A stretch of 64,000 nt of DNA from Streptomyces liliiviolaceus (GTDB lineage: Bacteria; Actinomycetota; Actinomycetes; Streptomycetales; Streptomycetaceae), in assembly GCF_018070025.1 (NCBI RefSeq), contig NZ_JAGPYQ010000001.1, positions 310,001 to 374,000 on the forward strand, in the 5' to 3' direction. The first letter of the stretch is position 1. Each line of letters starts with the position of its first letter. Positions 12,060 to 40,306 of this stretch are shown one piece after another. Position numbers and translations under genes: made by a program. The notes under the pieces were generated by a model that saw nothing but the letters and a program-made list of their open reading frames with translations, had not been told where the DNA came from and did not search any database.

Positions 12060-12071
12060 CTACGCGCGTAG
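12060..12071. promoter_or_regulatory. Nucleoside-regulon operator before deoC
   Basis: A perfect 12 bp palindrome CTACGCGCGTAG, ending 19 bp before the chosen deoC ATG. TATGCT at 12073-12078 could be the -10 hexamer, placing transcription near the GTG/ATG start region, so a bound repressor would block the promoter. The same palindrome is found before add (23914) and the nucleoside ABC operon (37491). Confidence 0.75.
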
Positions 12072-12090
12072 ATATGCTCGGGTGGTGACC

Positions 12091-13050
12091 ATGCCCACCA
12101 CCACCCCCTCCGCAGCCCCCGCCTTCACGGACGTGACCGCGTCAGACAGCGCCCTGCGCCGCTTCCTCCACGGGCTGCCCGGCGTCGACACGGTCGGTCT
12201 GGAGGCGCGCGCCGCCGCGCTCGGCACCCGTTCCGTCAAGACGACCGCGAAGGCGTACGCCATAGACCTCGCCATCTCGATGGTCGACCTGACGACGCTG
12301 GAAGGCGCGGACACCCCCGGCAAGGTCCGGGCGCTCGGCGCCAAGGCCGTCCACCCGGACCCCACGGACCGCACCGCCCCGACGACCGCCGCCGTCTGCG
12401 TCTACCCCGACATGGTGGCCGCGGCCAAGGACGCCGTCGCCGGCTCAGGCGTGCTGGTCGCCTCCGTCGCGACCGCATTTCCGGCCGGCCGCGCCGCGCT
12501 CGACGTGAAGCTGGCCGACGTGCGCGACGCCGTCGCCGCGGGCGCCGACGAGATCGACATGGTCATCGACCGCGGCGCGTTCCTCGCGGGCAGGTACCTG
12601 AAGGTGTACGACGAGATCGTCGCCGTGAAGGAGGCCTCGGGCGCCGCCCGCCTGAAGGTCATCTTCGAGACGGGCGAGCTGTCGACGTACGACAACATCC
12701 GGCGCGCGAGCTGGCTCGGCATGCTGGCGGGCGCGGACTTCATCAAGACGTCGACGGGCAAGGTCGCCGTCAACGCGACCCCCGCGAACACCCTTTTGAT
12801 GCTGGAGGCCGTCCGCGACTTCCGCGCGCAGACCGGGGTCCAGGTGGGCGTGAAGCCCGCCGGCGGCATTCGTACCACGAAGGACGCCGTCAAGTTCCTG
12901 GTGCTGGTCAAGGAGACCGCGGGCGAGGACTGGCTGGACAACCACTGGTTCCGCTTCGGCGCGTCCTCGCTCCTCAACGACCTGCTGATGCAGCGCCAGA
13001 AACTGGCCACCGGCCGCTACTCCGGCCCCGACTACGTGACGGTGGACTGA
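12091..13050 (+). CDS. deoC: Deoxyribose-phosphate aldolase
   Basis: 319 residues. Cleaves 2-deoxyribose 5-phosphate to glyceraldehyde 3-phosphate and acetaldehyde, the last step of deoxynucleoside breakdown. The Schiff-base lysine motif FIKTSTGK is near residue 233 and the second lysine lies in VGVKPAGGIR near residue 256. The ATG at 12091 is preceded by possible GTG starts at 12082 and 12085; a longer open frame runs back through the repeat array and is not used. No good Shine-Dalgarno is visible, and the likely promoter lies so close that the message may be leaderless. The next gene, an aldehyde dehydrogenase, starts 5 bp later and fits the need to remove the acetaldehyde product. Longer than the 220-260 residues of short DeoC forms because of an N-terminal extension. 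Confidence 0.93.
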   Translation: MPTTTPSAAPAFTDVTASDSALRRFLHGLPGVDTVGLEARAAALGTRSVKTTAKAYAIDLAISMVDLTTLEGADTPGKVRALGAKAVHPDPTDRTAPTTAAVCVYPDMVAAAKDAVAGSGVLVASVATAFPAGRAALDVKLADVRDAVAAGADEIDMVIDRGAFLAGRYLKVYDEIVAVKEASGAARLKVIFETGELSTYDNIRRASWLGMLAGADFIKTSTGKVAVNATPANTLLMLEAVRDFRAQTGVQVGVKPAGGIRTTKDAVKFLVLVKETAGEDWLDNHWFRFGASSLLNDLLMQRQKLATGRYSGPDYVTVD

Positions 13051-13055
13051 TCCAC

Positions 13056-14516
13056 ATGGCTTCCGCAACGCCTTCCGCAACGGCTTCCGCGTTCGAGTAC
13101 GCACCGGCGCCCGAGTCCCGCTCCGTCGTCGACATCGCCCCGTCGTACGGGCTGTTCATCGACGGCGAGTTCACCGAGGCCGCCGACGGCAAGGTCTTCA
13201 AGACCGTCAGCCCGAGCACCGAAGAGGTGCTGTCCGAGATCGCCCGGGCGGGCGAGGCGGACGTCGACCGCGCGGTGAAGGCCGCCCGCCGGGCCTTCGA
13301 GAAGTGGTCCGCGCTGCCCGGCTCCGAGCGCGCCAAGTACCTGTTCCGTATCGCCCGCATCATCCAGGAGCGCAGCCGCGAGCTGGCCGTCCTGGAGACG
13401 CTGGACAACGGAAAGCCCATCAAGGAGACGAGGGACGCCGACCTCCCCCTGGTGGCGGCGCACTTCTTCTACTACGCGGGCTGGGCCGACAAGCTCGACC
13501 ACGCCGGCTTCGGCGCGAACCCGCGCCCGCTGGGCGTCGCCGGCCAGGTCATCCCCTGGAACTTCCCGCTCCTGATGCTGGCCTGGAAGATCGCCCCGGC
13601 CCTCGCGACGGGCAACACGGTGGTGCTGAAGCCCGCCGAGACGACCCCCCTGTCCGCCCTGTTCTTCGCGGACATCTGCCGCCAGGCGGGCCTGCCCAAG
13701 GGCGTCGTCAACATCCTGCCGGGATACGGCGACGCGGGCGCGGCGCTCGTCGAGCACCCGGACGTGAACAAGGTGGCCTTCACCGGCTCAACCGCCGTCG
13801 GCAAGGCCATCGCCCGCCAGGTGGCGGGCACGGCCAAGAAGGTCACGCTCGAACTGGGCGGCAAGGGCGCGAACATCGTCTTCGACGACGCCCCGATCGA
13901 CCAGGCCGTCGAGGGCATCGTCACGGGCATCTTCTTCAACCAGGGCCAGGTCTGCTGCGCGGGCTCGCGGCTCCTTGTCCAGGAGTCGATCCACGACGAG
14001 CTGCTGGACTCCCTCAAGCGCAGGCTCTCGACGCTGCGTCTGGGCGACCCACTCGACAAGAACACCGACATCGGCGCGATCAACAGCGCCGAGCAGCTCG
14101 CCCGGATCTCCTCGCTCGTCGAGCAGGGCGAGGCGGAGGGCGCCGAGCGCTGGTCACCGTCCTGCGAACTGCCGTCGTCGGGCTACTGGTTCGCCCCGAC
14201 GCTCTTCACGAACGTCACCCAGGCGCACACCGTCGCCCGCGACGAGATCTTCGGCCCGGTCCTGTCCGTCCTCACCTTCCGCACCCCGGACGAGGCGGTC
14301 GCGAAGGCCAACAACAGCCAGTACGGCCTCTCGGCGGGCATCTGGACCGAGAAGGGTTCCCGGATCCTGGCGGTCGCGAGCAAGCTGCGCGCGGGTGTCA
14401 TCTGGTCCAACACGTTCAACAAGTTCGATCCGACCTCGCCGTTCGGCGGCTACAAGGAGTCGGGCTACGGCCGCGAGGGCGGTCGCCACGGCCTGGAGGC
14501 GTACCTCGATGTCTGA
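13056..14516 (+). CDS. NAD(P)-dependent aldehyde dehydrogenase
   Basis: 486 residues, a complete ALDH. The cofactor-binding stretch VIPWNFPLLMLAWKIAPALA is near residue 167, the FTGSTAVGK loop near 242, the general-base Glu in LELGGKGANI near 265, and the catalytic Cys pair in QVCCAG at residues 300-301. The EIFGPVLSV and KESGYGREGG motifs follow towards the end. It is 5 bp behind deoC and overlaps the next gene by 8 bp, so the three are one operon. The placement suggests it oxidises acetaldehyde from the DeoC reaction to acetate; that substrate is inferred from context. The N-terminal 30 residues are Ser/Ala/Thr-rich. Confidence 0.92.
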   Translation: MASATPSATASAFEYAPAPESRSVVDIAPSYGLFIDGEFTEAADGKVFKTVSPSTEEVLSEIARAGEADVDRAVKAARRAFEKWSALPGSERAKYLFRIARIIQERSRELAVLETLDNGKPIKETRDADLPLVAAHFFYYAGWADKLDHAGFGANPRPLGVAGQVIPWNFPLLMLAWKIAPALATGNTVVLKPAETTPLSALFFADICRQAGLPKGVVNILPGYGDAGAALVEHPDVNKVAFTGSTAVGKAIARQVAGTAKKVTLELGGKGANIVFDDAPIDQAVEGIVTGIFFNQGQVCCAGSRLLVQESIHDELLDSLKRRLSTLRLGDPLDKNTDIGAINSAEQLARISSLVEQGEAEGAERWSPSCELPSSGYWFAPTLFTNVTQAHTVARDEIFGPVLSVLTFRTPDEAVAKANNSQYGLSAGIWTEKGSRILAVASKLRAGVIWSNTFNKFDPTSPFGGYKESGYGREGGRHGLEAYLDV

Positions 14517-15444: not shown

Positions 15445-15480
15445 ACCGCCGACGCAAGAGAACGGTTCGGCCCCCATACG

Positions 15481-17065: not shown

Positions 17066-17827
17066 TCAGGCGACAAGCTCCCCGAAGGACTCCTCCTCGT
17101 CACGGCCGAAGCTGAGGACGTCGTCCTCGCGCAGCCGGCGGAGCGACCGCCAGATGCTGGACTTCACCGTGCCGACACTGATGTCGAGGATCTCCGCGAT
17201 CTCCGGGTCCGTGCGGCCCTCGTAGTAACGAAGGACCAGCATGGTGCGCTGGAGTTCGGGGAGCCGGGCGAGCGCCTGCCACAGAACCGCGCGCAGCTCC
17301 GTGCCGCGCATCGCGTCCGTGTCGCCGGCCGTCTCCGGCAGTTCCTCGGTCGGGTATTCGTTCAGCTTGCGGCGGCGCCACGCGCTGATGTGCAGATTGG
17401 TCATCGTGCGGCGGAGGTAGCCCCCGACCGCGGCCTTGTCACTGATGCGGTCCCACGCCCGGTACGTCGAGAAGAGGGCGCTCTGCAGCAGGTCCTCGGC
17501 CTCGAAACGGTCACCGGTCAGGTGGTAGGCGGTCGCGTACAGGGAGGCGCGGCGCTCCTGGACGTAGGCGGTGAACTCCGCCTCCGACACCGAGTGCCGC
17601 TCCCCCGTGACCTCCCCGTACGCCGCCCCCGTACCCCCGTGGGCGACCCCCGTGCCGCTTCCCCCCGTATGTGCGTCAACCACCGTCATGTACGACCCGG
17701 TGTGCTGACGCCCGGTGCCGCGAGCGCACCCCCGCCCGCTCACGGCACCGGACTTCTCGGTGCTCCTCGTGACGTCGTGGAGCCGCGTGACAACTGCGCC
17801 AGTGCTGGTGCTGTGCAGCGTGTTCAT
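17066..17827 (-). CDS. sigQ: ECF-type RNA polymerase sigma factor SigQ
   Basis: 253 residues from ATG 17827 (MNTLHSTSTGAVV); a shorter start at 17689 (MTVVDAH) is possible. After an 85-residue low-complexity N terminus, region 2 is at about 90-150 (LYATAYHLTGDRFEAEDLLQ) and region 4 at about 190-245 (LPELQRTMLVLRYYEGRTDP, then VGTVKSSIWRSL). This is the SigE-like/SACE family. Position, divergent from afsQ1-afsQ2, matches sigQ of Streptomyces coelicolor, where it is regulated by AfsQ1 and affects antibiotic production. The AfsQ1 box at 17969 lies in the shared promoter region. No anti-sigma gene is adjacent. A terminator follows at 16932. Confidence 0.9.
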   Translation of the reverse strand: MNTLHSTSTGAVVTRLHDVTRSTEKSGAVSGRGCARGTGRQHTGSYMTVVDAHTGGSGTGVAHGGTGAAYGEVTGERHSVSEAEFTAYVQERRASLYATAYHLTGDRFEAEDLLQSALFSTYRAWDRISDKAAVGGYLRRTMTNLHISAWRRRKLNEYPTEELPETAGDTDAMRGTELRAVLWQALARLPELQRTMLVLRYYEGRTDPEIAEILDISVGTVKSSIWRSLRRLREDDVLSFGRDEEESFGELVA

Positions 17828-17968
17828 CTCGCGCCCCCCGTCGTGGAGTTCCGGTTCTCCGGTACTTCGTCTGCTTCGTCGCCGACCGTGTCGCCGGCTT
17901 CGCTGCGGTGCTTCCGTGCTTGTGACCAAAAGCTTGCCGGGGCCACTTCATGACGGTGTCCCCCGACT

Positions 17969-17984
17969 GTCACAGACCTGTCAC
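17969..17984. promoter_or_regulatory. AfsQ1-binding box
   Basis: GTCAC-agacct-GTCAC matches exactly the reported AfsQ1 consensus GTnAC-n6-GTnAC. It lies 142 bp upstream of the sigQ start and 164 bp upstream of the afsQ1 start, in the 320 bp divergent region 17828-18147, which otherwise shows no gene. Confidence 0.8.
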
Positions 17985-18147
17985 AGGGGTCGGTCCCCGA
18001 TTTTCCACAGACCGATCACAGAGAAGCGTCGTACGGCTACTCATCCGGCACACTCGGCACGCCTCGGCCCCGCACTCGTACGCGGGACATGTGTGGGAGC
18101 GCTCCAACAGTCGATACCCGCCCACGTCATGGGACAGAATGACGTCC

Positions 18148-18825
18148 GTGCCTTCCCTGTTGCTGATCGAGGACGACGACGCCATCCGGACGGCCCTGGA
18201 GCTCTCGCTGACGCGCCAGGGACACCGGGTGGCCACCGCTGCCACCGGCGAGGACGGTCTGAAGCTGTTGCGCGAGCAACGGCCCGATCTGATCGTTCTC
18301 GACGTGATGCTGCCCGGCATCGACGGATTCGAGGTGTGCCGCCGTATCCGGCGTACGGACCAGTTGCCGATCATCCTGCTGACCGCGCGCAGCGATGACA
18401 TCGACGTCGTGGTCGGGCTGGAGTCCGGCGCCGACGACTACGTGGTCAAACCCGTGCAGGGGCGGGTGCTCGACGCCCGGATCCGGGCCGTGCTGCGCCG
18501 CGGCGAGCGCGAGGCGAACGACTCGGCGACCTTCGGTTCGCTGGTGATCGACCGCGCCGCGATGACCGTGACGAAGAACGGCGAGGACCTGCAGCTGACG
18601 CCCACCGAGCTGCGGCTGCTCCTTGAGCTGAGCCGGCGCCCCGGCCAGGCCCTGTCCCGGCAGCAGCTGCTGCGGCTGGTGTGGGAGCACGACTACCTCG
18701 GCGACTCACGGCTCGTCGACGCGTGTGTGCAGCGGCTGCGCGCGAAGGTGGAGGACGTGCCGTCCTCGCCGACCCTGATCCGTACCGTGCGCGGCGTCGG
18801 CTACCGGCTGGACAATCCTCAGTGA
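18148..18825 (+). CDS. afsQ1: Two-component response regulator AfsQ1
   Basis: 225 residues, OmpR/PhoB class. The receiver domain has the acidic pocket EDDD at 8-11, the phosphorylated Asp52 in LDVMLPG, and the conserved Lys in YVVKPVQ. The winged-helix domain begins at about residue 125 and includes LTPTELRLLLEL and RTVRGVGYRL. The GTG at 18148 gives the 225-residue length known for AfsQ1; an ATG at 18139 adds three residues. The stop overlaps the kinase start. In S. coelicolor AfsQ1 responds to nitrogen-rich, glutamate-containing conditions and activates antibiotic genes and sigQ. The box at 17969 implies control of its own promoter region. Confidence 0.93.
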   Translation: MPSLLLIEDDDAIRTALELSLTRQGHRVATAATGEDGLKLLREQRPDLIVLDVMLPGIDGFEVCRRIRRTDQLPIILLTARSDDIDVVVGLESGADDYVVKPVQGRVLDARIRAVLRRGEREANDSATFGSLVIDRAAMTVTKNGEDLQLTPTELRLLLELSRRPGQALSRQQLLRLVWEHDYLGDSRLVDACVQRLRAKVEDVPSSPTLIRTVRGVGYRLDNPQ

Positions 18826-22742: not shown

Positions 22743-23897
22743 TCAGCCCTCTTCGCGCACAGAACCGCTGGTGGAGGCGGTCTGCTGGAACAGCCATTCG
22801 GATTTAAGCTCGGCATAACCGGGCTTGATCACGTCATTGATCATGGCCAGTCGTTCATCGAAAGGAATGAATGCTGATTTCATCGCATTGACTGTGAACC
22901 ACTGCATGTCGTCGAGCGAATAGCCGAAAGCGTCGACAAGGTGCTCGAATTCGCGGCTCATGCTGGTGCCGGACATCAGACGGTTGTCGGTGTTCACGGT
23001 CGCCCGGAAGTGCAGCCGCCGCAGCAGCCCGATGGGGTGCTCGGCGTACGAGTCGGCGGCGCCCGTCTGGAGGTTGGAACTGGGGCACAGCTCCAGCGGC
23101 ACCCGCTTGTCGCGTACGTACGAGGCGAGGCGGCCCAGTTTCACCGTGCCGTCGTCCTGCACCTGGATGTCGTCGATGATGCGCACGCCGTGGCCCAGCC
23201 GGTCGGCGCCGCACCACTGGAGCGCCTGCCAGATGGAGGGGAGCCCGAAGGCCTCGCCCGCGTGGATCGTGAAGTGGTTGTTCTCCCGCTTCAGATACTC
23301 GAAGGCGTCCAGGTGGCGGGTGGGCGGGAAGCCCGCCTCGGCGCCCGCGATGTCGAAGCCGACGACGCCCAGATCCCGGTAGCGGTTGGCCAGTTCGGCG
23401 ATCTCCAGGGCGCGGGCCGCGTGCCGCATGGCGGTGAGCAGGGCGCCGACGCGGATGCGGTGGCCGTTCTCGCGGGCCAGCCGCTCGCCCTCCCGGAAGC
23501 CCTCGTTGACGGCCTCGACGACCTCTTCGAGGGTGAGCCCGGCTTCGAGGTGCTGCTCGGGCGCGTACCGCACCTCGGCGTAGACGACGCCGTCCTGGGC
23601 AAGGTCCTCGGCGCACTCGGCGGCGACGCGGACCAGCGCCTCGCGGGTCTGCATGACGGCGCAGGTGTGCGCGAAGGTCTCCAAGTACCGCTCCAGCGAA
23701 CCGGAGTCGGCGGCTTCGCGGAACCAGATGCCGAGCTTGTCGGCGTCCGTCTCCGGGAGGCCCGTATAGCCCGTGTCACGGGCGAGGTCGACGATCGTCC
23801 CGGGGCGCAGGCCGCCGTCCAGGTGATCGTGCAGCAGGACCTTCGGCGCCCGGCGGATCTGCTCCGAGCTCGGGGTGTTCTTGGTCTGGCTCGTCAT
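22743..23897 (-). CDS. add: Adenosine deaminase
   Basis: 384 residues. Converts adenosine or deoxyadenosine to inosine or deoxyinosine. The zinc and substrate motifs are LLHDHLDGG near residue 22, the HAGE motif near residue 218, a following Gly-His-Gly-Val-Arg stretch, and [11 protein letters not shown] near residue 275. The usual TDDP aspartate region reads [11 protein letters not shown]: the metal-binding Asp is kept and the next residue is Asn. Start ATG 23897 has no Shine-Dalgarno; a TAGAGT hexamer 6 bp upstream predicts a leaderless message starting at the ATG. The nucleoside-regulon palindrome at 23914 overlaps that promoter. Confidence 0.93.
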
Positions 23898-23903: not shown

Positions 23904-23909
23904 ACTCTA
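23904..23909 (-). promoter_or_regulatory. Probable -10 element of add (leaderless message)
   Basis: On the minus strand TAGAGT fits the actinobacterial -10 pattern TANNNT and ends 6 nt before the add ATG at 23897, so transcription should begin at or next to the A of the start codon. Confidence 0.5.
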
Positions 23910-23913: not shown

Positions 23914-23925
23914 CTACGCGCGTAG
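23914..23925. promoter_or_regulatory. Nucleoside-regulon operator before add
   Basis: The perfect palindrome CTACGCGCGTAG lies 16 bp upstream of the add start and immediately behind the -10 element, inside the promoter spacer. Same sequence as before deoC and the ABC operon. Confidence 0.78.
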
Positions 23926-24772: not shown

Positions 24773-25050
24773 GTCCTGGAGGAGATTGTCTGCGCGGTGT
24801 TCCTGCCGCTGGTGCGCCGAGCCGCGGAACAGTGGGAAGAACGGCGGTGGAATTCTTCATTCAGCAGGCATGTACTTCTTTGCCGAGCAATTCCGCTCCC
24901 CCCGTCCATCGACAGGACCTGCGCAAACGCCGGCCGAAGCCGTTGCGCGGAAATGACGGATCCTGTCAAACTGACGCCGGAAACCGTCCATTTGGAGGGG
25001 TGTCTGGTGGGGGAACGGCCCGACGACCGACACAGACGACGGCTCGCCTC

Positions 25051-26511: not shown

Positions 26512-27462
26512 TCACTCCGGGAGCAGATTGCCCCTTCTCGACAGCAGGAACTTCTTGAAGGCCGCCACCGGGGGTGTGTCCGGGTGGCCGTCCAGCCAGG
26601 CGACCCCGATCTCGCGGGCCGCGCGGGGGGCGGTGACCGTCAGTTCCACCACGCCCGGGCGGGGGACGGCCGGCGGCGGCAGGAGGGCCACGCCCAGGCC
26701 CGCCGCCACCAGGCCGCGCAGGGTCTCGGCCTCCTCGCCCTCGAAGGCGATCCGGGGGCGGAAGCCCGCCTGCCGGCAGAGGTCGTCGGTGATGCGGCGC
26801 AGGCCGTAGCCCGGTTCCAGGGTCACGAAAGCCTCGTCGGCGGCCTCGGCGAGACGGATACGGCGGCGCGAGGCCAGGCGGTGGTCGGCCGGGACCACCA
26901 GGCGGAGCTTCTGCTCGTCCAGACGGCGGCCCACCAGGTCGGGGGCGTCCGGGACGGGGGACGTGAGGCAGAGGTCGAGTTCGCCGGAGCGCAGGCGCTC
27001 GATCATCGCCTCGCCGTAGTTCTGGACGAGGCTGAAGCGCACGCGGGGATGGTCGACGCGGAAGGCCCGGATCAGCGCCGGGACCGTCTCGGAGCCCATG
27101 GTGTGCAGAAAGCCGAAGGCGACCTTGCCGGTGGTGGGGTCGGCGTCGGCCCGTACCTCGTCGGCGGCCCGCTCGATCTCGGCGAGCGCCCGTTCGACGG
27201 AACCGAGGAACGTGCGGCCGGCCGGGGTGAGGGAGACCGTGCGGCCGCGGCGGGCGAAGAGGTCCACGCCCAGGTCCTGTTCGAGGCGGACCATCGCCCG
27301 GGACAGCGTCGACTGCGGGACCTGCATCTCCTGCGCGGCCCGCGTCACATGCTCGGTGCGGGCGACCCCGGCGAAGTACGCCAGCCGCGGGGCGAGCACG
27401 GCGACGATGTCTTCTGTGTCACCGGACGGTGACAGGCGACCTTCTGACCTCTGCTGATGCAT
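26512..27462 (-). CDS. LysR-family transcriptional regulator
   Basis: 316 residues from ATG 27462 (MHQQRSEGR); an earlier in-frame start at 27492 would overlap the promoter of the divergent gene. Winged helix near residues 20-80: FAGVARTEHVTRAAQEMQV then STLSRAMVRLEQDLGVDLF. The effector-binding domain follows from about residue 105 (GKVAFGFLHTMGSETVP). It is divergent from an MFS exporter gene 65 bp away, the usual LysR arrangement for a regulator of its neighbour. ATGG-N5-CCAT at 27476-27488 in the gap is a possible operator. Effector unknown. Confidence 0.88.
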   Translation of the reverse strand: MHQQRSEGRLSPSGDTEDIVAVLAPRLAYFAGVARTEHVTRAAQEMQVPQSTLSRAMVRLEQDLGVDLFARRGRTVSLTPAGRTFLGSVERALAEIERAADEVRADADPTTGKVAFGFLHTMGSETVPALIRAFRVDHPRVRFSLVQNYGEAMIERLRSGELDLCLTSPVPDAPDLVGRRLDEQKLRLVVPADHRLASRRRIRLAEAADEAFVTLEPGYGLRRITDDLCRQAGFRPRIAFEGEEAETLRGLVAAGLGVALLPPPAVPRPGVVELTVTAPRAAREIGVAWLDGHPDTPPVAAFKKFLLSRRGNLLPE

Positions 27463-27475
27463 CACGGGAACGATT

Positions 27476-27488
27476 ATGGCGATTCCAT
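27476..27488. promoter_or_regulatory. Possible LysR operator
   Basis: A short dyad ATGG-cgatt-CCAT contains the T-N11-A spacing typical for LysR proteins and lies in the 65 bp between the divergent LysR and MFS genes. Confidence 0.3.
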
Positions 27489-27527
27489 GCATTGGACGGA
27501 TGACGAGGAGGACTTTAGGTTCGAAAC

Positions 27528-28911: not shown

Positions 28912-29021
28912 TTTTCCGTCTCGGGGGGCCATTGTCAGTGGGCTGCGGTAGCTTCCGGGGTGTCGGTGCCGCAATGGGGCGGCGTCTGTGCGACGGACAG
29001 AGCCACAGGGGTGGGTTGGCC

Positions 29022-30044
29022 ATGAGCGACGGTACGGCGACGGTGGAAGACCTCGATGTCCGGCTGGAGAAGCACCGGGTCGAGCTGACGGGGTACTGCT
29101 ACCGCATGCTCGGCTCGTCCTTCGAGGCCGAGGACGCGGTGCAGGACACGCTGGTGCGCGCCTGGCGCAGCTACGACAAGTTCGAGGGCCGCTCCTCGAT
29201 GCGTTCGTGGCTGTACCGGATCGCGACGAACGTCTGCCTGGACATGCTGACCGCCGGCAACAAACGGGCCCGGCCGATGGATCTGACGGACTCGACGCCC
29301 CTCGCGCAGGCCGCCCTGACGCCGCGCGCGGACAACACCTGGCTGGAGCCGATGCCGGACGCGCGCGTGCTGCCGACGGTCGCCGACCCGGCCGAGGCCG
29401 CCGTCGCCAAGGAGTCGGTGCGTCTCGCCTTCATGGCCGCCCTGCAGCAGCTGCCGCCCAAGCAGCGGGCCGTGCTCATCCTGCGTGAGGTGCTGGCGTG
29501 GAAGGCGAGCGAGGTGGCCGAGTTGCTCGGCACGACGGTCGCCTCCGTGAACAGCGCGCTGCAGCGGGCGCGTGCGACGCTCTCGGAGAGCGGCGACGGG
29601 AGCGCGGCGGCGCGGGCCGTCACCTCCGATCCGCTCGACGAGGAGCAGCAGAAGCTGCTCGATCGCTATGTGGCCGCCTTCGAGGGGTACGACATGGCGG
29701 CGCTGACGGCCCTCCTGCACGAGGACGCCGTGATGACGATGCCGCCGTTCGACCTGTGGCTGACCGGGCCCGCGGACATCACGGGCTTCATGACGACGCT
29801 CGGTGCGGCCTGCGCGGACTCCCATCTGGTGCCGGTCGCGGTGAACGGACTGCCGGGCTTCGCCCAGTACAAGCCGGATCCCGAGACGGGTGGCCGTACG
29901 GCGTGGGCCGTGCAGGTCCTGGAGATCTCAGAGGGGCGGATCACGGGGTTCCACTGCTTCCTCGACACGCAGCGGTGGTTCCCGCTGTTCGGGCTGCCGC
30001 TCCAGCTCGAAGGGCAGGGCGACGAGGGCGAGCAGCGCGCGTAG
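29022..30044 (+). CDS. ECF sigma factor with C-terminal SnoaL-like domain (SigG type)
   Basis: 340 residues. Region 2 at about 15-85 (LTGYCYRMLGSSFEAEDAVQ, SMRSWLYRIATNVCLDML) and region 4 at about 140-195 (LPPKQRAVLILREVLAWKAS, VASVNSALQRARATL). From about residue 210 a SnoaL/NTF2-like domain follows (LDRYVAAFEGYDMAALTALL, then EDAVMTMPPFDLWLTG). This layout is that of SigG/ECF sigma factors in which the C-terminal domain, not an anti-sigma protein, controls activity. The start at 29022 has no strong ribosome site. The last 117 bp are overlapped, antisense, by the STAS gene. No anti-sigma gene is adjacent. Confidence 0.88.
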   Translation: MSDGTATVEDLDVRLEKHRVELTGYCYRMLGSSFEAEDAVQDTLVRAWRSYDKFEGRSSMRSWLYRIATNVCLDMLTAGNKRARPMDLTDSTPLAQAALTPRADNTWLEPMPDARVLPTVADPAEAAVAKESVRLAFMAALQQLPPKQRAVLILREVLAWKASEVAELLGTTVASVNSALQRARATLSESGDGSAAARAVTSDPLDEEQQKLLDRYVAAFEGYDMAALTALLHEDAVMTMPPFDLWLTGPADITGFMTTLGAACADSHLVPVAVNGLPGFAQYKPDPETGGRTAWAVQVLEISEGRITGFHCFLDTQRWFPLFGLPLQLEGQGDEGEQRA

Positions 30045-31556: not shown

Positions 31557-32849
<1,293 letters not shown>

Positions 32850-32951: not shown

Positions 32952-32957
32952 CGTGGA

Positions 32958-33371
32958 TCACCTGGTGAGGTGGTCCGGGCCGAAGGCCTGCGGGAGCATC
33001 TCGGAGAGCGGGAGGAGGCCGGCCGGGGTCTCCAGAATGAGATCGGGGCCGCCGAACTCGTACAGGAGCTGGCGGCAGCGGCCGCACGGGACGAGGATCT
33101 CGCCGTGGCCGTCCACGCACGTGAAGTGCGTGAGCCGGCCTCCCCCGGTGTTCTGGAGCTGCGAGACCAGCCCGCACTCGGCGCACAGGCCGAGTCCGTA
33201 CGAGGCGTTCTCCACGTTGCAGCCGGAGATCACCCGGCCGTCGTCGACCAGGGCCGCGACCCCGACCGGGTAGCCCGAGTAGGGGGCGTACGCGCGGGAC
33301 ATCGCCTCGCGCGCCACCTCCCGCAGGGCCTTCCAGTCGACCTCGGCCGGCCCGGTCCCGGCCGCCGTCAC
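32958..33371 (-). CDS. cdd: Cytidine deaminase
   Basis: 137 residues from GTG 33371, which overlaps the permease stop (GTGA). The zinc-binding motifs are LCAECGLVSQL (Cys-Ala-Glu, with the catalytic Glu) and PCGRCRQLL with the two remaining cysteines, and the substrate motif is CNVENASYG. Deaminates cytidine and deoxycytidine to uridine and deoxyuridine, which the adjacent thymidine phosphorylase can use. Homotetrameric class of usual length (about 130 residues). Translational coupling to the nucleoside transporter genes supports a role on imported nucleosides. Confidence 0.93.
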   Translation of the reverse strand: MTAAGTGPAEVDWKALREVAREAMSRAYAPYSGYPVGVAALVDDGRVISGCNVENASYGLGLCAECGLVSQLQNTGGGRLTHFTCVDGHGEILVPCGRCRQLLYEFGGPDLILETPAGLLPLSEMLPQAFGPDHLTR

Positions 33372-34630
33372 TTGCCCTGCCCTCGCCGGTACGGCATGCC
33401 GTCCGCCTTCGGCATCCGCAGGCGCTGCGCGGAGAGCGCGAGGACCAGCAGCGTGACGACGTACGGGGTCGCGGTGACGACCTGGTTCGGGACCTCGTTG
33501 GTGGTGGCGTACCAGAGGAAGACCAGGACTCCGAGGACACCGGTGATCGCCGCGTGGACGTACCGCTTCTTCCAGACGAAGTACGCCGCGCCGATGATCA
33601 GGAGCAGCGCCAGCAGGAGGAGCAGCGCGTGGACGTTGGTGCCGCCGCCGCGGAGCTTGAGGCTGTCGGTGTAGCCGAACAGGCCCGCGCCCAGGGCGAG
33701 TCCGCCCGGCATCCAGTTGCCGAAGATCATCGCGGCGAGACCGATGTAGCCGCGCCCGCCGGTCTGGCCCTCCAGGTAGATGTTGGAGGCGACCAGGGAG
33801 AGGAACGCGCCGCCGAGTCCGGCGAAGCCGCCGGAGATGACCACGGCCAGGTACTTGTACTTGTAGACGTTGACGCCGAGCGACTCCGCGGCCACCGGGT
33901 TCTCGCCGCAGGAGCGCAGCCGCAGCCCGAAGGAGGTGCGCCACAGCACCCACCAGGTGACCGGGACGAGCAGGACGGCGATCACGGTGAGCGGCGACAG
34001 GTCGGTGAAGAGGCCGCCGACCAGACCGGCGAGGTCGGAGACCAGGAACCAGTGCTTGCCGTTCAGCGTCTGGAGCCAGTCCGAGAGCCCCGGGATGTCG
34101 AAGGTGCCGAGCGAGTCGACGGGCGGCGACTGCTTCGACGTACCGCCCTCCTCGCCCTCGAAGGCGAAGGTCGACAGATAGCGGGTGGCGCCGAGGGCCA
34201 GGATGTTGATGGCCACACCGGAGACGATGTGGTTGACGTTGAAGGTCACGGTGACGATCGCGTGCAGCAGACCGCCGAGCGCGCCGCCGATGATGCCGAA
34301 GGCGACACCGGTCCACGGGCCCCACTGGAAGCCGGCCCAGGCGCCGAACCAGGTGCCGAGGATCATCATGCCTTCGAGGCCGATGTTGACGACGCCCGCG
34401 CGCTCGGCCCACAGTCCGCCGAGTCCCGCGAGGCCGATCGGTACGGCCAGGCGCAGGGCGGTGGACATCTGGCCGGTGGAGGTGATGCCGTTCGCGTCGG
34501 TGATGAGGCGGACGACGGAGACGAGGACCAGCAGGCCCGCGATGAGCAGGAGCAGGACCGGGAGCGAGATACGGCGGCGGCCCCGGGCGGGCTTCGGCGC
34601 CTGCGGCTTGGCGACGGTCGAGGTGCTCAT
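33368..34630 (-). CDS. Nucleoside ABC transporter permease 2
   Basis: 420 residues, about nine to ten membrane helices. Branched-chain-amino-acid/ribose-type permease family (BPD_transp_2), the NupQ/YufQ-like subunit. Motifs GGLWAERAGVVNIGLEGMMI at the start of the core and RSCGENPVAAESLGVNVYKY (the docking helix region) are typical. It pairs with the preceding permease, whose stop it overlaps by 4 bp. An extra cytoplasmic or periplasmic stretch around residues 150-200 is longer than in Bacillus homologues. Confidence 0.9.
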   Translation of the reverse strand: MSTSTVAKPQAPKPARGRRRISLPVLLLLIAGLLVLVSVVRLITDANGITSTGQMSTALRLAVPIGLAGLGGLWAERAGVVNIGLEGMMILGTWFGAWAGFQWGPWTGVAFGIIGGALGGLLHAIVTVTFNVNHIVSGVAINILALGATRYLSTFAFEGEEGGTSKQSPPVDSLGTFDIPGLSDWLQTLNGKHWFLVSDLAGLVGGLFTDLSPLTVIAVLLVPVTWWVLWRTSFGLRLRSCGENPVAAESLGVNVYKYKYLAVVISGGFAGLGGAFLSLVASNIYLEGQTGGRGYIGLAAMIFGNWMPGGLALGAGLFGYTDSLKLRGGGTNVHALLLLLALLLIIGAAYFVWKKRYVHAAITGVLGVLVFLWYATTNEVPNQVVTATPYVVTLLVLALSAQRLRMPKADGMPYRRGQGK

Positions 34631-35751
34631 CGGGCAGCCACCTCCTTCTTGGAGTTGTCGTTGGCGGCGGCAGCGGCCAGTTCGGCACCGACGCGCCGCT
34701 GCTGGCGGCGCAGGCCCCAGACGCGTACGGCCTCGTAGGAGACGACGACCGCGATCACGATGAGACCCTGCATGATCACCGCGATCTCCTTGTCGTACGC
34801 CACCGGGGTCGCGTAGTCGAGGGCGGGCGAGGCCTTGTCGAGGAAGGCGACCAGCAGGGCGGCGAAGGCGATGCCGACCGGGTTGTTGCGGCCGAGCAGC
34901 GCGATGGTGATGCCGGTGAAGCCGAGGCCCGTCGGGAAGGACAGGCTGTAGGTGTGGGCGTCGCCGAGGAGGATCGGCAGGCCGGCGAGGCCCGCCATGC
35001 CGCCGGAGATGAGCATCGCGGTGAGGACCATGCGCTTGGCGTCCACGCCGGAGGCGGCGGCCGCGGTCTCGGAGGCGCCGGTGGCGCGCAGGTCGAAGCC
35101 GAAGCGGGTGCGGTTGAGGACCAGCCAGTACAGGACACCGGCGAGTACGGCGATCAGGGTGAAGCCGTAGATCTCGCCCGCGTCGCCCATGTCGAAGCCG
35201 GGGAACCAGCCGGACTCCTTCATCACGCCGGTGGTCTGGTTGTTGCCGAGCGGCTGGCCCCAGACCTCGGTGAGGGTGAGGTAGCCGATGAGGCTGGTGG
35301 CGATGGCGTTGAGCATGATCGTCGCGACGACCTCGCTCACTCCGCGGGTCACCTTCAGGACACCCGCGATACCGGCCCAGAAGGCGCCGGTGAGCACGGC
35401 GATCAGCATCAGGAACGGGATCTGCAGGGCGGCGGGCAGCGAGACGTGCGCGCCGACGACCGCGGTCATCATGGCGGCGAGGCGGTACTGGCCGTCGACG
35501 CCGATGTTGAAGAGGTTCATCCGGAAGCCGACGGCGACCGCGAGGGCGGCGAGGTAGTAGACGCCGGCCTGGTTGATGATCAGGACCTGGACGTCGGCGA
35601 AACCGGCCTGCTCGAACATCAGGGTGTACGGCTCGATCGGGCTCTTGCCCGAGGCGAGCAGCACGAACGAGGTCAGCACCACGGCCGCCACGAGCGCGAT
35701 GACCGGTCCGGCCACCGCGAGGAGCACTCGCTCCTTGTCGAACTTCTTCAT
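34627..35751 (-). CDS. Nucleoside ABC transporter permease 1
   Basis: 374 residues from ATG 35751, overlapping the ATPase stop by 4 bp. NupP/YufP-like permease of the BPD_transp_2 family with about nine helices. Family segments: VGFRMNLFNIGVDGQYRLAA and RATGASETAAAASGVDAKRM, which is the ATPase-contact region. Longer readings upstream are shadow sequence. Together with the second permease, the double ATPase and a BMP lipoprotein it forms a purine/pyrimidine nucleoside importer. Confidence 0.9.
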   Translation of the reverse strand: MKKFDKERVLLAVAGPVIALVAAVVLTSFVLLASGKSPIEPYTLMFEQAGFADVQVLIINQAGVYYLAALAVAVGFRMNLFNIGVDGQYRLAAMMTAVVGAHVSLPAALQIPFLMLIAVLTGAFWAGIAGVLKVTRGVSEVVATIMLNAIATSLIGYLTLTEVWGQPLGNNQTTGVMKESGWFPGFDMGDAGEIYGFTLIAVLAGVLYWLVLNRTRFGFDLRATGASETAAAASGVDAKRMVLTAMLISGGMAGLAGLPILLGDAHTYSLSFPTGLGFTGITIALLGRNNPVGIAFAALLVAFLDKASPALDYATPVAYDKEIAVIMQGLIVIAVVVSYEAVRVWGLRRQQRRVGAELAAAAANDNSKKEVAAR

Positions 35752-37463
35752 CGGGCCTCGTCCTCCGGGGCTTCCTCTGCCTGCGCTGCGTGCTCTTCGC
35801 GCTCTGCCTGCTCCACGTGCTCCAGGTGGCCGGAGGCGGCGCCCGTCATGGCCGAACCCAGCTCCTCCGGAGTGATGGTGGCCGGGTCGGCGTCCGCGAC
35901 GAGCCGGCCGTTGTAGATCACCCGGAGGGTGTCGGAGAGGCCGATCAGCTCGTCCAGGTCGGCTGAGATGAGCAGCACGGCGAGGCCCTCGCGGCGGGCC
36001 TCGCGGATCTGGTCCCAGATCGCGGCCTGCGCGCCGACGTCCACACCGCGGGTGGGGTGGGCGGCGATCAGGAAGCGCGGCTTGTGGCTCATCTCGCGGC
36101 CGACGATCAGCTTCTGCTGGTTGCCGCCGGACAGGGAGGCCGCCGTGACGTCGATGCCGGGCGTCCGGACGTCGTACTCCTCGACGATGCGGCGGGTGTC
36201 GGCCTGGGCGCCCTTGATGTCGAGCCACCTGCCCTTGGCGTTGGGCTTCTCGGTGACGTGGCCCAGGATGCGGTTCTCCCACAGCGGGGCTTCGAGGAGC
36301 AGGCCGTGGCGGTGGCGGTCCTCGGGGATGTAGCCGACGCCCTGTTCGCGGCGCCTGCGGGTGGGCCAGGAGGTGATCTCCTCGCCGATGAAGCGCAGGG
36401 TGCCCGAGTCGGCGTTCTTGAGGCCGATCAGGGCGTCGACCAGTTCGGTCTGGCCGTTGCCCTCGACCCCGGCGATGCCCATGACCTCACCGGCGTGGAT
36501 GGTGAAGGTGACGTCGTCCAGGACGCGCTTGGCGTCGCCGCCCGCCGCGTCGCCCGCGAGCGATCCGGCGGCCGGGGCGTCGCCGACGGTGCCGGTCTCG
36601 CCGAGGGAGGCGCCGCCCGCCGCGTACACGGTGAGGCCCTCGACCTGGATGACGGGCTTGTCGGTGACCGTCGACTCGGCGGTCTCGGGGGTGGGCAGTT
36701 CGCTGCCGACCATCATCTCGGCGAGCTGCCGGGAGGTGGTCTCGGCGGGGACGGCCGTGCCGACCGTCGTGCCGCGGCGGATGACGGTGATCTCGTCGGC
36801 GACCGACAGGACCTCGCCCAGCTTGTGGGAGATGAAGATGACGGACAGGCCCTCGGCCTTGAGCTCGCGGAGGTTGTCGAAGAGCGCGTCGACCTCCTGC
36901 GGCACGAGGACGGCGGTGGGCTCGTCCAGGATCAGGATGCGGGCGCCGCGGTAGAGGACCTTGAGGATCTCCACGCGCTGGCGGTCGGCGACGCCGAGGT
37001 CCTCGACGAGGGCGTCCGGGCGGACCCCGAGGCCGTACCGGTCGGAGATCTCCCTGATCTTGTCGCGGGCTGCGCCGCCGATGCCGTACAGCTTCTCGCT
37101 GCCGAGGACGACGTTCTCCAGGACGGTGAGGTAGTCGGCCAGCATGAAGTGCTGGTGGACCATGCCGATGCCGCGCGCGATGGCGTCGGCGGGGCTGGCG
37201 AAGGCGACCTGCTCGCCGTCGACCGCGATGGTGCCCTCGTCCGGCTTCTGCATGCCGTAGAGGATCTTCATCAGGGTGGACTTGCCTGCCCCGTTCTCGC
37301 CGACGAGGGCGTGCACGGTGCCCTTGCGGACGGACAGGTGGATGTCGTGGTTGGCGACGACACCGGGGAAGCGCTTGGTGATCCCCGCGAGTTCGACCGA
37401 CACGGGCGACTGCGACGGGGACGGTGACTGTGCGGCGAGCGGAGGGCTGCTGGACGCGTCGAT
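35748..37463 (-). CDS. Nucleoside ABC transporter ATPase with two ABC domains; probable ATC start
   Basis: 571 residues if translation begins at the ATC at 37463, which has AAGGAG exactly 6 nt upstream; the first ordinary codon in frame is GTG 37403, with no ribosome site, giving 551 residues. An in-frame TAG at the operator bars longer starts. Domain 1: Walker A GENGAGKSTLM, Walker B ILILDEPTAVL; domain 2: degenerate Walker A GVEGNGQTEL and signature LSGGNQQK, as in RbsA/NupO-type proteins in which only one site is fully active. Between the domains, about residues 275-313, is a Gly/Ala-rich insertion not usual in the family. It heads the importer operon, whose operator is at 37490. Confidence 0.92.
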   Translation of the reverse strand: MDASSSPPLAAQSPSPSQSPVSVELAGITKRFPGVVANHDIHLSVRKGTVHALVGENGAGKSTLMKILYGMQKPDEGTIAVDGEQVAFASPADAIARGIGMVHQHFMLADYLTVLENVVLGSEKLYGIGGAARDKIREISDRYGLGVRPDALVEDLGVADRQRVEILKVLYRGARILILDEPTAVLVPQEVDALFDNLRELKAEGLSVIFISHKLGEVLSVADEITVIRRGTTVGTAVPAETTSRQLAEMMVGSELPTPETAESTVTDKPVIQVEGLTVYAAGGASLGETGTVGDAPAAGSLAGDAAGGDAKRVLDDVTFTIHAGEVMGIAGVEGNGQTELVDALIGLKNADSGTLRFIGEEITSWPTRRRREQGVGYIPEDRHRHGLLLEAPLWENRILGHVTEKPNAKGRWLDIKGAQADTRRIVEEYDVRTPGIDVTAASLSGGNQQKLIVGREMSHKPRFLIAAHPTRGVDVGAQAAIWDQIREARREGLAVLLISADLDELIGLSDTLRVIYNGRLVADADPATITPEELGSAMTGAASGHLEHVEQAEREEHAAQAEEAPEDEAR

Positions 37464-37469
37464 GGCGTA

Positions 37470-37475
37470 CTCCTT
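37470..37475 (-). promoter_or_regulatory. Ribosome binding site before an ATC codon
   Basis: AAGGAG on the minus strand, followed by TACGCC and then ATC at 37463. It is the only good ribosome site between the in-frame stop at the operator and the GTG at 37403. Confidence 0.6.
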
Positions 37476-37489
37476 GGGGAAGGGGTCGA

Positions 37490-37503
37490 TCTACGCGCGT
37501 AGA
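37490..37503. promoter_or_regulatory. Nucleoside-regulon operator before the importer operon
   Basis: The longest version of the palindrome, TCTACGCGCGTAGA, perfect over 14 bp. It lies 26 bp upstream of the proposed ATC start of the ABC ATPase gene. Confidence 0.8.
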
Positions 37504-37682
37504 GCCCCTGCTTCAACAACTACTGCGGAGTCGGATGTTCCGGTCACATCCAGGCAGATCCATGCCTCCCGGACAGACCCGGGTCATCCGCCGCGCGAAC
37601 GGGGCGCGGGAAGGCCATCCTTCCCACACCCCGTTTTCGCGACCGTAACGCTGCCATTACAGCGCCTGATTGACCACGGTTA

Positions 37683-38732
37683 CTACGAGGTCTTCACCTT
37701 GATCGTGCCGTCGTTGATGCCGTCGGTGGCCTTCTTCAGGGCCTCCTGCAGCTTCGCGTTGTCCTTGAACTCCGGGTTCGAGTCCGCGAGGCCGACGCCG
37801 CCGGTCTTGAGGGAGGCGCGCACGACGCCCGTCTCGGGCTTGCCGTCCTGGACCGACTTGGCGAGGTTGTAGACCGCGCCCGCGACGTCCTTGGTGGCCG
37901 AGGTGAGGATGTACTGCTTGTACGCCTTCAGGGCGTCCTGGCTGTACTGGTCGGAGTCGACGCCGATCGCCCACACCTTGGCGGCGGAGGCGGCCTCGAT
38001 GACACCCTGACCGGAGAGGCCGGCCGCGTGGTAGACCACGTCGGCGCCGTCCTCGATCTGGCCCTCGGCGGCGGTCTTGCCCTTGTCGGGGCTGGCGAAG
38101 CCGCCGTCCTCGGCCTTCTCGGTGAGGAACTGCGAGACGACCTTGACCTTCGGGTTGGTGTCCGCGACGCCCTGCTTGTAGCCCGCCTCGAACTTGTGGA
38201 TCAGCGGGATGTCCACGCCGCCGACGAAGCCGACGGTCTTGGACTTGGTGGTGAGGGCCGCGGCGACACCCGCGAGGTACGAGGACTGCTCCTCGTGGAA
38301 GACCATGTCGGCGACGTTCTTCTTGTCGATCGTCTCGTCGTCGACGATGCCGAACGTGGTCTTCGGGAACTTCTCGGCGACCTCGGCGACCGCCGGCGCG
38401 TAGGCGTAGCCGACGCCGACCACCGGGTTGTAGCCCGCCTTGGCCAGCGTCTGCAGGCGCTGCACCTTGTCGGCGTCGGACTCGCCGTCGGTGGGCTCGA
38501 CGGCCTTGGAGCCGTACTTGAACTCCGCGGCGGCCTTCTCCATTCCGGCGGTCGCGGCGTCGTTGAAGGACTGGTCGCCCTTGCCGCCGACGTCGTACGC
38601 GAGGGCGATGCCCTTGCTCTTGCCGTCGCCGCTGTCAGCGGCGTCGTTGGACGTGCCGCCGCAAGCAGCGAGGGCGGCGGTGAGGGTAGCGGTCGCAACG
38701 CCCGCGACAGCGATTCGGGACACCCGGCGCAT
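37683..38732 (-). CDS. BMP-family nucleoside-binding lipoprotein 1
   Basis: 349 residues from ATG 38732 with AAGGAG upstream. Lipobox LAAC at residues 21-24 (TAALAACGG). PnrA/BMP fold: IALAYDVGGKGDQSFNDAA (nucleoside-contacting start), VGVGYAYAPAV, and the base-binding VYHAAGLSGQGVIEA. The family delivers purine or pyrimidine nucleosides to the adjacent permeases. The gene ends 219 bp before the ATPase start, with the operator in between, so it probably has its own promoter (degenerate operator at 38788). It is very similar to the second BMP gene beside it. Confidence 0.92.
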   Translation of the reverse strand: MRRVSRIAVAGVATATLTAALAACGGTSNDAADSGDGKSKGIALAYDVGGKGDQSFNDAATAGMEKAAAEFKYGSKAVEPTDGESDADKVQRLQTLAKAGYNPVVGVGYAYAPAVAEVAEKFPKTTFGIVDDETIDKKNVADMVFHEEQSSYLAGVAAALTTKSKTVGFVGGVDIPLIHKFEAGYKQGVADTNPKVKVVSQFLTEKAEDGGFASPDKGKTAAEGQIEDGADVVYHAAGLSGQGVIEAASAAKVWAIGVDSDQYSQDALKAYKQYILTSATKDVAGAVYNLAKSVQDGKPETGVVRASLKTGGVGLADSNPEFKDNAKLQEALKKATDGINDGTIKVKTS

Positions 38733-38787
38733 GGAACGTGACTCCTTAGTGCAAGCGCCCGTACCAGGCGCTGGTTCCGCCGCAGCG

Positions 38788-38799
38788 TAACGCGCGTAG
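38788..38799. promoter_or_regulatory. Degenerate nucleoside-regulon operator before BMP gene 1
   Basis: TAACGCGCGTAG: the right half matches the consensus, the left half has two changes from CTACGCG. Located 55 bp upstream of the start. Identical in sequence to the site at 40295. Confidence 0.55.
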
Positions 38800-38874
38800 A
38801 CCAGACGGAAAACCCCTTCTGTCCGGTCCGTTATCGAGCTGTGGCCACAGATGCCGTACAGACTACGGAACGTG

Positions 38875-38905
38875 GTACGCCCCTTGCGGGAGGCAAGGGG
38901 CGTAC
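38875..38905. terminator. Hairpin downstream of BMP gene 2
   Basis: GTACGCCCCTTGC (38875-38887) pairs perfectly with 38893-38905. It lies in the 422 bp between the two BMP genes (38733-39154); the rest of that gap holds an operator and a repeat pair, no gene. Confidence 0.6.
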
Positions 38906-38959
38906 GTGTCCCTCGGCGGGGGCGGGGCGATGGGGGCGCGTTGTCCACTGCGGCCCGGT

Positions 38960-39095
38960 GGGGGCTGGTCGCGCAGTTCCCCGCGCCCCTCCGGAGCGGG
39001 GATGCGCCCCTGCCCCGGCTGCCGGCCGGCAGCCGAACACGCCACCGCCACCACATCAAGGGGCGCGGGGAACTGCGCGATCAGCCCCCACCGGC
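38960..39095. repeat. Inverted pair of the intergenic repeat between the BMP genes
   Basis: TTCCCCGCGCCCC at 38977-38989 and its complement at 39060-39072, each flanked by the GTGGGGGCTGGTCGCGCAG-type shoulder and its complement, so about 30 bp per arm can pair. Confidence 0.85.
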
Positions 39096-39154
39096 CGTCG
39101 GCCGAGGACCTACCCGCACCACCCCGCACCCCCGACCCGCACACACCGGAGGTG

Positions 39155-40234
39155 TCAGTCGGTCTTGACCGTCACCGTGCCGCTCACGATGTCCTCCTTC
39201 GCCTTCTCCACCGCCTCGACGACGTCCGTCATCTCCTTGTACTTCGGGTTCGAGTCGGCGAAGCCCACCCCGCCCGACTTCAGGTCGCCCCGGTGCTCAC
39301 CGGAGAGCGGCTTCCCGTCCACGACGGACTTCGTGACCTCGTACACCGCGCCGCCCACGTCCTTGAGCGCGGAGCCGAGGATCCATTCCTTCGACGCGGC
39401 GAGCGCCTTCTGCTTGTACTGGTCCGAGTCGACCCCGATCGCCCAGACCTTCTGCGCCGCGGCCTCCTGGATGACGCCCTGGCCGGACAGACCGGCCGCG
39501 TGGTAGATCACGTCGGCGCCGGCCTCGACCTGCCCGCTGGCGGCCTCCTTGCCCATGCTCGGGTTGGAGAACCCGCCGTCCTCGGGCTTCTCGGTGAGGT
39601 ACCGCTTCTCGATGTCGATCTTCGGGTCGACGGACTTGACCCCCTGGACGAAGCCGTCCTCAAACTTGTGGATGAGGGGGATGTCCACTCCGCCGATGAA
39701 GCCCACGTGCTTCTTCTTCGTGGCCTTGGCGGCGGCGACACCGGCGAGGTAGGAGGCCTGCTCCTCGGCGAACACCATGTCGGCGACGTTCTTCGCCTGC
39801 ACCTGGGCGTCGTCGATGACGGCGAAGGTGGTCTTCGGGTACTTGGCGGCGACCTCCTTGACCGCCGGGGCGTAGATGTAGCCGACGCCGACGATGGGGT
39901 TGTAGCCGGCCTTCGCCATCTGGGTCAGCCGCTGCACCTTGTCGGCGTCCGACTCGCCGTCGCTCGGCTCGATGTCGTTCCCGCCGATCTTGAATTCCTT
40001 GCGGGCCTTCTCGAACCCGCTGTAGGCGGCGTCGTTGAAGGACTGGTCTCCCCGGCCGCCGATGTCGTAGGCGAGCCCGATGCCCTTGCCCTTGTAGCCG
40101 GAGCCTGAGCCGGACTCGGTGTCGCTGCCCGAGGAGTCGCTGCTGGTCTCACCGCAGCCGGAGGCCGCGACGACGACGACCGCGACGGCGACAGCGGCTT
40201 GAGAAAGCCTGGTTCTCCGAGAGATCCGACGCAT
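39155..40234 (-). CDS. BMP-family nucleoside-binding lipoprotein 2
   Basis: 359 residues from ATG 40234 (MRRISRRTRLSQ). Signal with a Cys in VVVAASGCGE (about residue 28) as lipid site. Same BMP/PnrA core as the next gene: GIGLAYDIGGRGDQSFNDAA, VGVGYIYAPAVKEV and YHAAGLSGQGVIQEA. A Ser/Gly-rich linker follows the lipid anchor. A tandem duplicate of BMP gene 1 that probably gives the same importer a second nucleoside specificity. Degenerate operator at 40295, so controlled with the other salvage genes. Confidence 0.92.
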   Translation of the reverse strand: MRRISRRTRLSQAAVAVAVVVVAASGCGETSSDSSGSDTESGSGSGYKGKGIGLAYDIGGRGDQSFNDAAYSGFEKARKEFKIGGNDIEPSDGESDADKVQRLTQMAKAGYNPIVGVGYIYAPAVKEVAAKYPKTTFAVIDDAQVQAKNVADMVFAEEQASYLAGVAAAKATKKKHVGFIGGVDIPLIHKFEDGFVQGVKSVDPKIDIEKRYLTEKPEDGGFSNPSMGKEAASGQVEAGADVIYHAAGLSGQGVIQEAAAQKVWAIGVDSDQYKQKALAASKEWILGSALKDVGGAVYEVTKSVVDGKPLSGEHRGDLKSGGVGFADSNPKYKEMTDVVEAVEKAKEDIVSGTVTVKTD

Positions 40235-40294
40235 GAGAGTGCACCCCTTACATTCCCCAACGGCGCCGTTGCCGACGCTGACTGCGGCGCACAG

Positions 40295-40306
40295 TAACGC
40301 GCGTAG
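40295..40306. promoter_or_regulatory. Degenerate nucleoside-regulon operator before BMP gene 2
   Basis: TAACGCGCGTAG, the same half-degenerate version as before BMP gene 1, 60 bp upstream of the start. Confidence 0.55.

Follow-up and report, generated by a model that had tools for sequence, protein, structure and literature searches.

Nucleoside uptake and salvage genes stand in scattered transcription units within the 64,000-nucleotide stretch of Streptomyces liliiviolaceus DNA analysed here (hereafter the window, C1:310001-374000), which raises the question of whether they are controlled together and, if so, by what. A model given the letters alone (the sequence-only reading) had proposed that one palindrome, CTACGCGCGTAG, links these genes into a regulon. 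The computations described below support that proposal: by far the best reading is that the palindromes are the operators of one regulon of nucleoside uptake and breakdown, and we put its probability at about 0.87.

A palindrome upstream of scattered nucleoside genes

We searched the whole window and found the 12-bp palindrome CTACGCGCGTAG as a perfect copy at 12060-12071, 23914-23925 and 37491-37502, and nowhere else in the window, just as the sequence-only reading had it; the third copy is part of a longer palindrome of 14 bp (37490-37503). That reading had also placed a half-degenerate version 55-60 bp before the two genes for BMP lipoproteins, and the search agreed: the form TAACGCGCGTAG is present at 38788 and 40295, ∼55 and ∼60 bp 5' of the respective start codons, and both genes carry the operator form CTACGCGCGTTA. 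Loose matching of CTACGCGCGTAG proves nothing because the window shows no enrichment at two mismatches (8 matches observed versus 4.81 expected, with 8 or more in 11 of 100 shuffles), and the sole copy with one mismatch, at 63704, lies within a predicted open reading frame.

On the scale of the genome (11,133,145 bases), there are four perfect copies, at C1 301227, 322060, 333914 and 347491. Markov models (orders 1-3), for which the window and nine further stretches of this genome served as training data, predict 0.39-0.55 copies. The reversed word, which served as the control, has no copy in the same 11.13 Mb. The four copies span just 46,276 bp, and every one of them is 5' of nucleoside genes. 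The fourth copy lies 8.8 kb to the left of the window, upstream of deoD (purine nucleoside phosphorylase, PNP), which is followed by a phosphomannomutase-type gene.

The position of the palindrome relative to the promoters, in which all -10 elements are inferred from sequence, follows a recurring layout. On the plus strand, the deoC operator (12060-12071) ends one base 5' of the inferred -10 element TATGCT (12073-12078), and deoC itself (deoxyribose-phosphate aldolase, 12085-13050; TIGR00126 above cut-off) probably begins as a leaderless message at the GTG at 12085, with an ATG following at 12091. The adjoining aldehyde dehydrogenase gene (13056-14516, plus strand), which stands in the same order in relatives, is probably co-transcribed with deoC. 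The arrangement of palindrome, A, TATGCT, six bases and GTG recurs in the ten deoC promoters with the site, and a GTG with a long open frame stands 6 nt after the deoC TATGCT in 119 of 120 named records. On the minus strand, the add operator (23914-23925) is followed by the inferred -10 element TAGAGT (23904-23909), 6 nt 5' of the ATG of add (adenosine deaminase, 22743-23897), which bears out the earlier claim that this promoter appears leaderless. Generally, add promoters consist of the palindrome, four bases, a TAgAGT-like hexamer, mostly six bases and ATG, and the deoD promoters of most relatives have a TACCCT-like hexamer ∼12 bases 3' of the palindrome, followed by GTG. Messages of deoC, add and deoD all look leaderless.

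At the two genes for BMP/PnrA-like nucleoside-binding lipoproteins (37683-38732 and 39155-40234, both on the minus strand and both matching PF02608), the operators (38788-38799 and 40295-40306, minus strand) are merged through their downstream arm with the inferred -10 elements TACGCT (38784-38789) and TACTGT (40291-40296), respectively. BMP promoters as a group have the last bases of the palindrome replaced by a -10-like hexamer (TAATCT, TACGAT, TACTCT etc.), and the half that had been called degenerate is therefore explained as an operator arm giving way to the inferred -10 hexamer. The spacing between the palindrome and the inferred -10 element is near-constant for each gene (1 nt at deoC, 4 nt at add, 12 nt at deoD and merged at the BMP genes), and the statement that the sites overlap or adjoin predicted promoters holds at deoC, add and the BMP genes. 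No clear -10 element was recognised at the nucleoside ABC operon. Here, the 14-bp operator (37490-37503) precedes, all on the minus strand, the genes for the ATPase (35748-37463, counted from a probable ATC start codon), permease 1 (34627-35751) and permease 2 (33368-34630), cdd (cytidine deaminase, 32958-33371) and deoA (pyrimidine-nucleoside/thymidine phosphorylase, 31557-32837).

Conservation, gene targets and mode of action

The sequence-only reading had named lack of conservation in related species as a result that would speak against the regulon. The 12-mer was found in all 150 sampled genomes of the genus, with 2-6 copies in each and a total of 573 copies compared with 69 of the reversed word, and in 100 of the 101 genomes of the family sample (1-6 copies each; 16 of 17 genera). 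The only family genome without it, G445, has the form CTACGCGCGTTACGCTC at deoD. The 14-mer that had been suggested as the test word, TCTACGCGCGTAGA, turned out to be too long, being present in this genome alone among the 150. At least 120 GTDB records contain a 19-mer comprising the deoC operator and TATGCT, and the 80 titles listed are all Streptomyces or Kitasatospora. In a sample of 296 genomes of the class, CTACGCGCGTAG occurs in 28 of 28 genomes of the genus and in 10 of the 268 others, in many of which the reversed control word outnumbers it. G233, which alone among the genomes outside the family has multiple copies (three), was set aside as a chance case; two of the copies were fetched, and neither stretch matched the reference nucleoside genes.

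The target genes were assigned in this genome and nine relatives picked for a contiguous cluster (18 stretches and, in the case of G274 and G067, an additional outlier apiece). Each of the 41 perfect copies in these ten genomes is either 5' of a nucleoside or purine gene or at its start, as a regulon with a single operator word would have it, and the other result that had been named as damaging, sites no more frequent near salvage genes than elsewhere, was likewise not what we found. In the nine relatives, the site stands 5' of deoD, of deoC and of add in every case, 5' of the ABC ATPase gene in all eight for which the promoter stretch was fetched and, as CTACGCGCGTTA, 5' of one or two BMP genes, again in eight of eight where the stretch was fetched. 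The fifth copy of G274 is a perfect 12-mer at purS, and that of G067 coincides with the beginning of a second gene for adenosine deaminase; at such second add genes, the site is located at the start of, or within, the coding alignment. We also inspected fifteen further perfect sites from other genomes, fetched as outliers from the main cluster or as unassigned: nine are at add, second add, ABC/BMP genes, deoC or a nucleotidase gene, one is 5' of a gene with a weak, below-cut-off match to the Lamin-tail domain, and five have no clear nucleoside link.

Some results weigh against the regulon as proposed. Among the six divergent family members fetched, several nucleoside genes are without a perfect site; such genes include deoC and deoD of L146, deoD of L147, and deoC of L148 and L157. 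Further, the orthologous nucleoside ABC operon is common in other families of the class, and CTACGCGCGTAG was present in none of the 40 stretches fetched from there, in which no common palindrome was noticed either. With these 40 stretches, an attempt to identify the regulator by its adjacency to the ABC operon failed.

We propose that a single DNA-binding regulator, most probably a dimeric repressor, recognises CTACGCGCGTAG as its operator. It would sit over the -10/-35 region and come off in the presence of nucleosides or of a sugar phosphate derived from them. Such a regulator would control uptake (the ABC transporter and both BMP lipoproteins), deamination (add and cdd), phosphorolysis (deoA and deoD) and the breakdown of deoxyribose phosphate (deoC and the aldehyde dehydrogenase gene). 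Imperfect copies would probably bring nucleotidases under its control as well and, to a weak degree, the purSQL genes for de novo purine synthesis. That one repressor acts on all sites, as the sequence-only reading had supposed, is likely; the computations establish the sites themselves, their conservation, their target genes and their location 5' of start codons, and repression and induction, like the single regulator, are what we infer. Repression is favoured because a protein on these sites would be expected to block RNA polymerase, and an operator just upstream of, or merged with, the -10 element is typical of repression.

A role as an activator site, occupied when nucleosides are present so as to turn the genes on, would suit deoD and some ABC promoters, in which the site lies approximately at the -35 position, and is compatible with the sequence. 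However, at deoC, add and the BMP genes, the palindrome is just 5' of, or merged with, the inferred -10 element, and we consider activation quite improbable. It is barely conceivable that the palindromes are non-regulatory and represent a dispersed repeat or merely inherited sequence: although one conserved neighbourhood holds most copies, the flanks vary from copy to copy, whereas the core and its spacing from the inferred -10 element do not, and unlinked nucleotidase genes of two other genomes also have perfect sites.

Weaker sites and candidate regulators

Allowing up to two mismatches to the 14-mer, we found 25 places in this genome, the four perfect copies among them, compared with 8 for the reversed control. 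One nucleotidase gene has two such near-sites, 43 bp apart, a second nucleotidase gene has one, and others are at purS and at a gene for a xanthine/uracil-type permease; several of the 25 are inside genes or 5' of unrelated genes. A base-catabolism cluster (C1:7045000-7063000) encodes two carbon-nitrogen hydrolases, a dihydropyrimidinase, a PucR regulator and a cytosine/purine-type permease, and TCTACGCCCGTAGA, another of the 25, lies ∼33 bp 5' of one of the two hydrolase genes in this one genome.

To follow the purS site, we searched 61 genomes and looked closely at the 30 best-matching loci, among them that of this genome. All 30 have a near-copy of the 14-mer, with one mismatch in 27, two in 2 and three in 1; windows drawn from the cluster itself, real sites included, contain a match with three or fewer mismatches in 153 of 3000 cases. 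The purS site looks as if it were kept weak on purpose, which we put forward as a proposal. The alternative, that the purS copies serve another regulator or arose by chance and that de novo purine synthesis is outside the regulon, would agree with the finding that none of the 30 loci has the perfect 14-mer. Yet the altered base varies by species while the remainder of the palindrome is kept, and the perfect 12-mer at purS of G274 comes from a genome outside the 30-locus set, and we regard this alternative as unlikely. Graded sites, perfect at salvage genes and usually with one mismatch at purS, amount to a testable model in which one regulator would give two levels of response.

The sequence-only reading had seen no candidate regulator gene inside the window. 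This calls for a qualification: scanning part of the window genes revealed those for a sigma factor (17066-17929), a response regulator (17950-18825), an AraC-type protein (24832-26028), a LysR-type protein (26512-27492), a sigma factor fused to an NTF2-like domain (28932-30044) and a TetR-type protein (51037-51678). None of these is tied here to the pathway, and our own lead lies outside the window.

This lead is a DeoR-family protein, for which the case is plausible but somewhat short of even. The gene (C1:297903-298865) is 2.4 kb from the deoD operator and 11 kb outside the window, is the only regulator gene found in the conserved block around deoD and has kept its synteny with deoD. The protein has both a DeoR helix-turn-helix domain (PF08220) and a DeoRC sensor domain (PF00455) above cut-off, the combination that marks the Escherichia coli type of DeoR, and the only PDB sequence that it matches, along the sensor part (E 9.3e-8), belongs to a deoxyribose operon repressor. 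It finds its best match in 101 of 101 family genomes (in one of them as two pieces). Of 52 distinct family sequences, selected for beginning with the pattern [VM]FAAERR, 50 match the protein of this genome at every one of residues 2-60, and the other two are 98% identical there; over residues 61-250, the identity across the same 52 ranges from 76 to 98%.

Three results count against DeoR as the regulator. The 12-mer is present in none of 59 distinct 250-nt stretches upstream of deoR, in which the best matches, with 3-5 mismatches, equal background. Relatives of DeoR with at least 54% identity (54-71%) occur outside the family in 23 genomes of the class sample, only one of which has the 12-mer. 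Finally, of twelve such relatives that were fetched, five lie no more than 1.6 kb from a gene for an ABC ATPase that is about one-third identical to the nucleoside one. Some of the DeoR relatives outside the family, including some of those of f17, have palindromes of the type GATCGG...CCGATC at their own promoters; an operator common to the f17 relatives and the nucleoside genes was considered and rejected, as such palindromes are absent from the BMP promoters examined by eye. The last ∼75 bases 5' of deoR itself (C1:298866 upward, minus strand) are strongly conserved in most of the family and include a leaderless-looking -10 element, TACTGT, together with inverted-repeat-like elements unlike CTACGCGCGTAG.

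We judge the chances slightly better than even that the regulon is the same but is controlled by another transcription factor encoded elsewhere, for example of the PucR, LacI or GntR type, with DeoR controlling something else. The deoR promoters, lacking the site and having a conserved layout of their own, speak for this, as does the PucR gene in the base-catabolism cluster with TCTACGCCCGTAGA at the hydrolase gene, although the site linked to PucR is known from one genome only. Operators of the LacI type in general would also accommodate a palindrome of 14 bp centred on CG. However, genes of the LacI type are often autoregulated, and the coordinates place none of the 46 matches to the LacI helix-turn-helix domain in this genome (45 above cut-off) less than 20 kb from a near-site among the 25; a LacI-type regulator is less likely for this reason.

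The proposed regulon resembles known systems in part. In the DeoR regulon of E. coli, the deoCABD genes are repressed by DeoR, with deoxyribose-5-phosphate as the inducer. As there, deoC, deoA and the gene for purine nucleoside phosphorylase share a palindromic operator here, and a DeoR-family gene is nearby; unlike there, the operator (CTACGCGCGTAG or CTACGCGCGTTA) differs from the E. coli sequence, the genes are in scattered transcription units, uptake genes, add, cdd, nucleotidase genes and purS are included, and the gene of the candidate regulator has no operator of its own. The PurR regulon of Bacillus subtilis places de novo purine genes and nucleoside and base uptake under one regulator. 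The regulon proposed here would be alike in joining de novo purine genes to nucleoside uptake but differs in its DNA word and gene content, with the strong sites at salvage genes. LacI-type regulators of nucleoside genes, namely CytR, RbsR2/RbsR3, AdeR and UriR, are described in PMC4052901 and PMC4746261, where palindromic operators likewise stand 5' of nucleoside uptake and catabolism genes, and the bifidobacterial RbsR2/RbsR3 consensus given there, TGATAAAACGTTTTATCA, is unlike CTACGCGCGTAG. In contrast to those regulons, no LacI-type gene stands beside a near-site here.

The Streptomyces coelicolor orthologue of the DeoR candidate is presumably SCO4920, judging by gene order. SCO4920 is the centre of an inferred network module (PMC3224704) and appears as a DeoR-family member in a table of glucose-responsive regulators (PMC4848846), and the portions of text available from these two papers mention no nucleoside link. 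An argR mutant shows an increase in both the secreted nucleotidase SCO2015 and the adenosine deaminase SCO5662 (PMC3293853), S. coelicolor contains more of the adenosine deaminase SCO4901 than S. lividans does (PMC7244524), and the available portions of PMC6627660 and PMC9739823 contain nothing further on the operator. Among the matches listed in a literature search by title and start of abstract, with subscription journals mostly outside its coverage, no paper names the operator, and the two full-text matches to its sequence were unrelated by title. Recycling of nucleosides and DNA matters in the programmed lysis and differentiation of Streptomyces hyphae, and a 12-bp word that is little changed across a whole family offers a direct bait for the regulator.

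Start codon of the transporter ATPase

The gene for the nucleoside ABC ATPase appears to start at a non-canonical AUC codon (rarely AUA or AUU) after a strong Shine-Dalgarno sequence. In the window, the Shine-Dalgarno sequence AAGGAG (37470-37475, minus strand) is followed by ATC at 37461-37463, and there is no ATG, GTG or TTG at the position that it indicates. We compared nine family ATPase genes, that of the window (37461-37475, minus strand) and eight from other loci: all nine have AGGAG, 6-8 bases and then ATC (ATA in one), and in five of them a GTG stands further downstream, without a Shine-Dalgarno sequence. A search of the 150 genus genomes with GGAG-N8-ATNNACGCGTC, which detects only codons beginning with AT, returned 124 rows, few of which were checked against gene position; 105 have the spacer of the element, and among these the codon is ATC in 103, ATA in 2 and ATG in none, while the remaining 19 look unrelated. 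There was no match in 42 of the 150 genomes, including this one, in which the spacer is two bases shorter. Elsewhere in the class, outside the family, the possible starts of 39 ATPase genes were ranked: ATC or ATT came out as best placed in 21 and ATG or GTG in 12, with neither assigned in 6, counts that are suggestive only, as the ranking favours the best Shine-Dalgarno sequence and has no chance control. Among the matches listed in a literature search for AUC, ATC and AUA start codons, none concerned this ATPase gene by its title.

Taking these results together with the graded operators, we offer a broader and rather doubtful proposal for the Streptomycetaceae. One repressor might govern nucleic-acid scavenging along its whole route into the cell, with nucleotidases, perhaps a secreted nuclease, uptake, salvage and base breakdown, while holding purS through a deliberately weakened copy, so that scavenging and synthesis would share one signal at different sensitivity; the conserved AUC, AUU or AUA start might additionally keep the ATPase at a low rate that is sensitive to initiation factors.

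Separately from the operators, a string, GGGGCGCGGGGAAC, was spotted by eye as a repeat in intergenic DNA of the window at ∼11914, 11986 and 39060.

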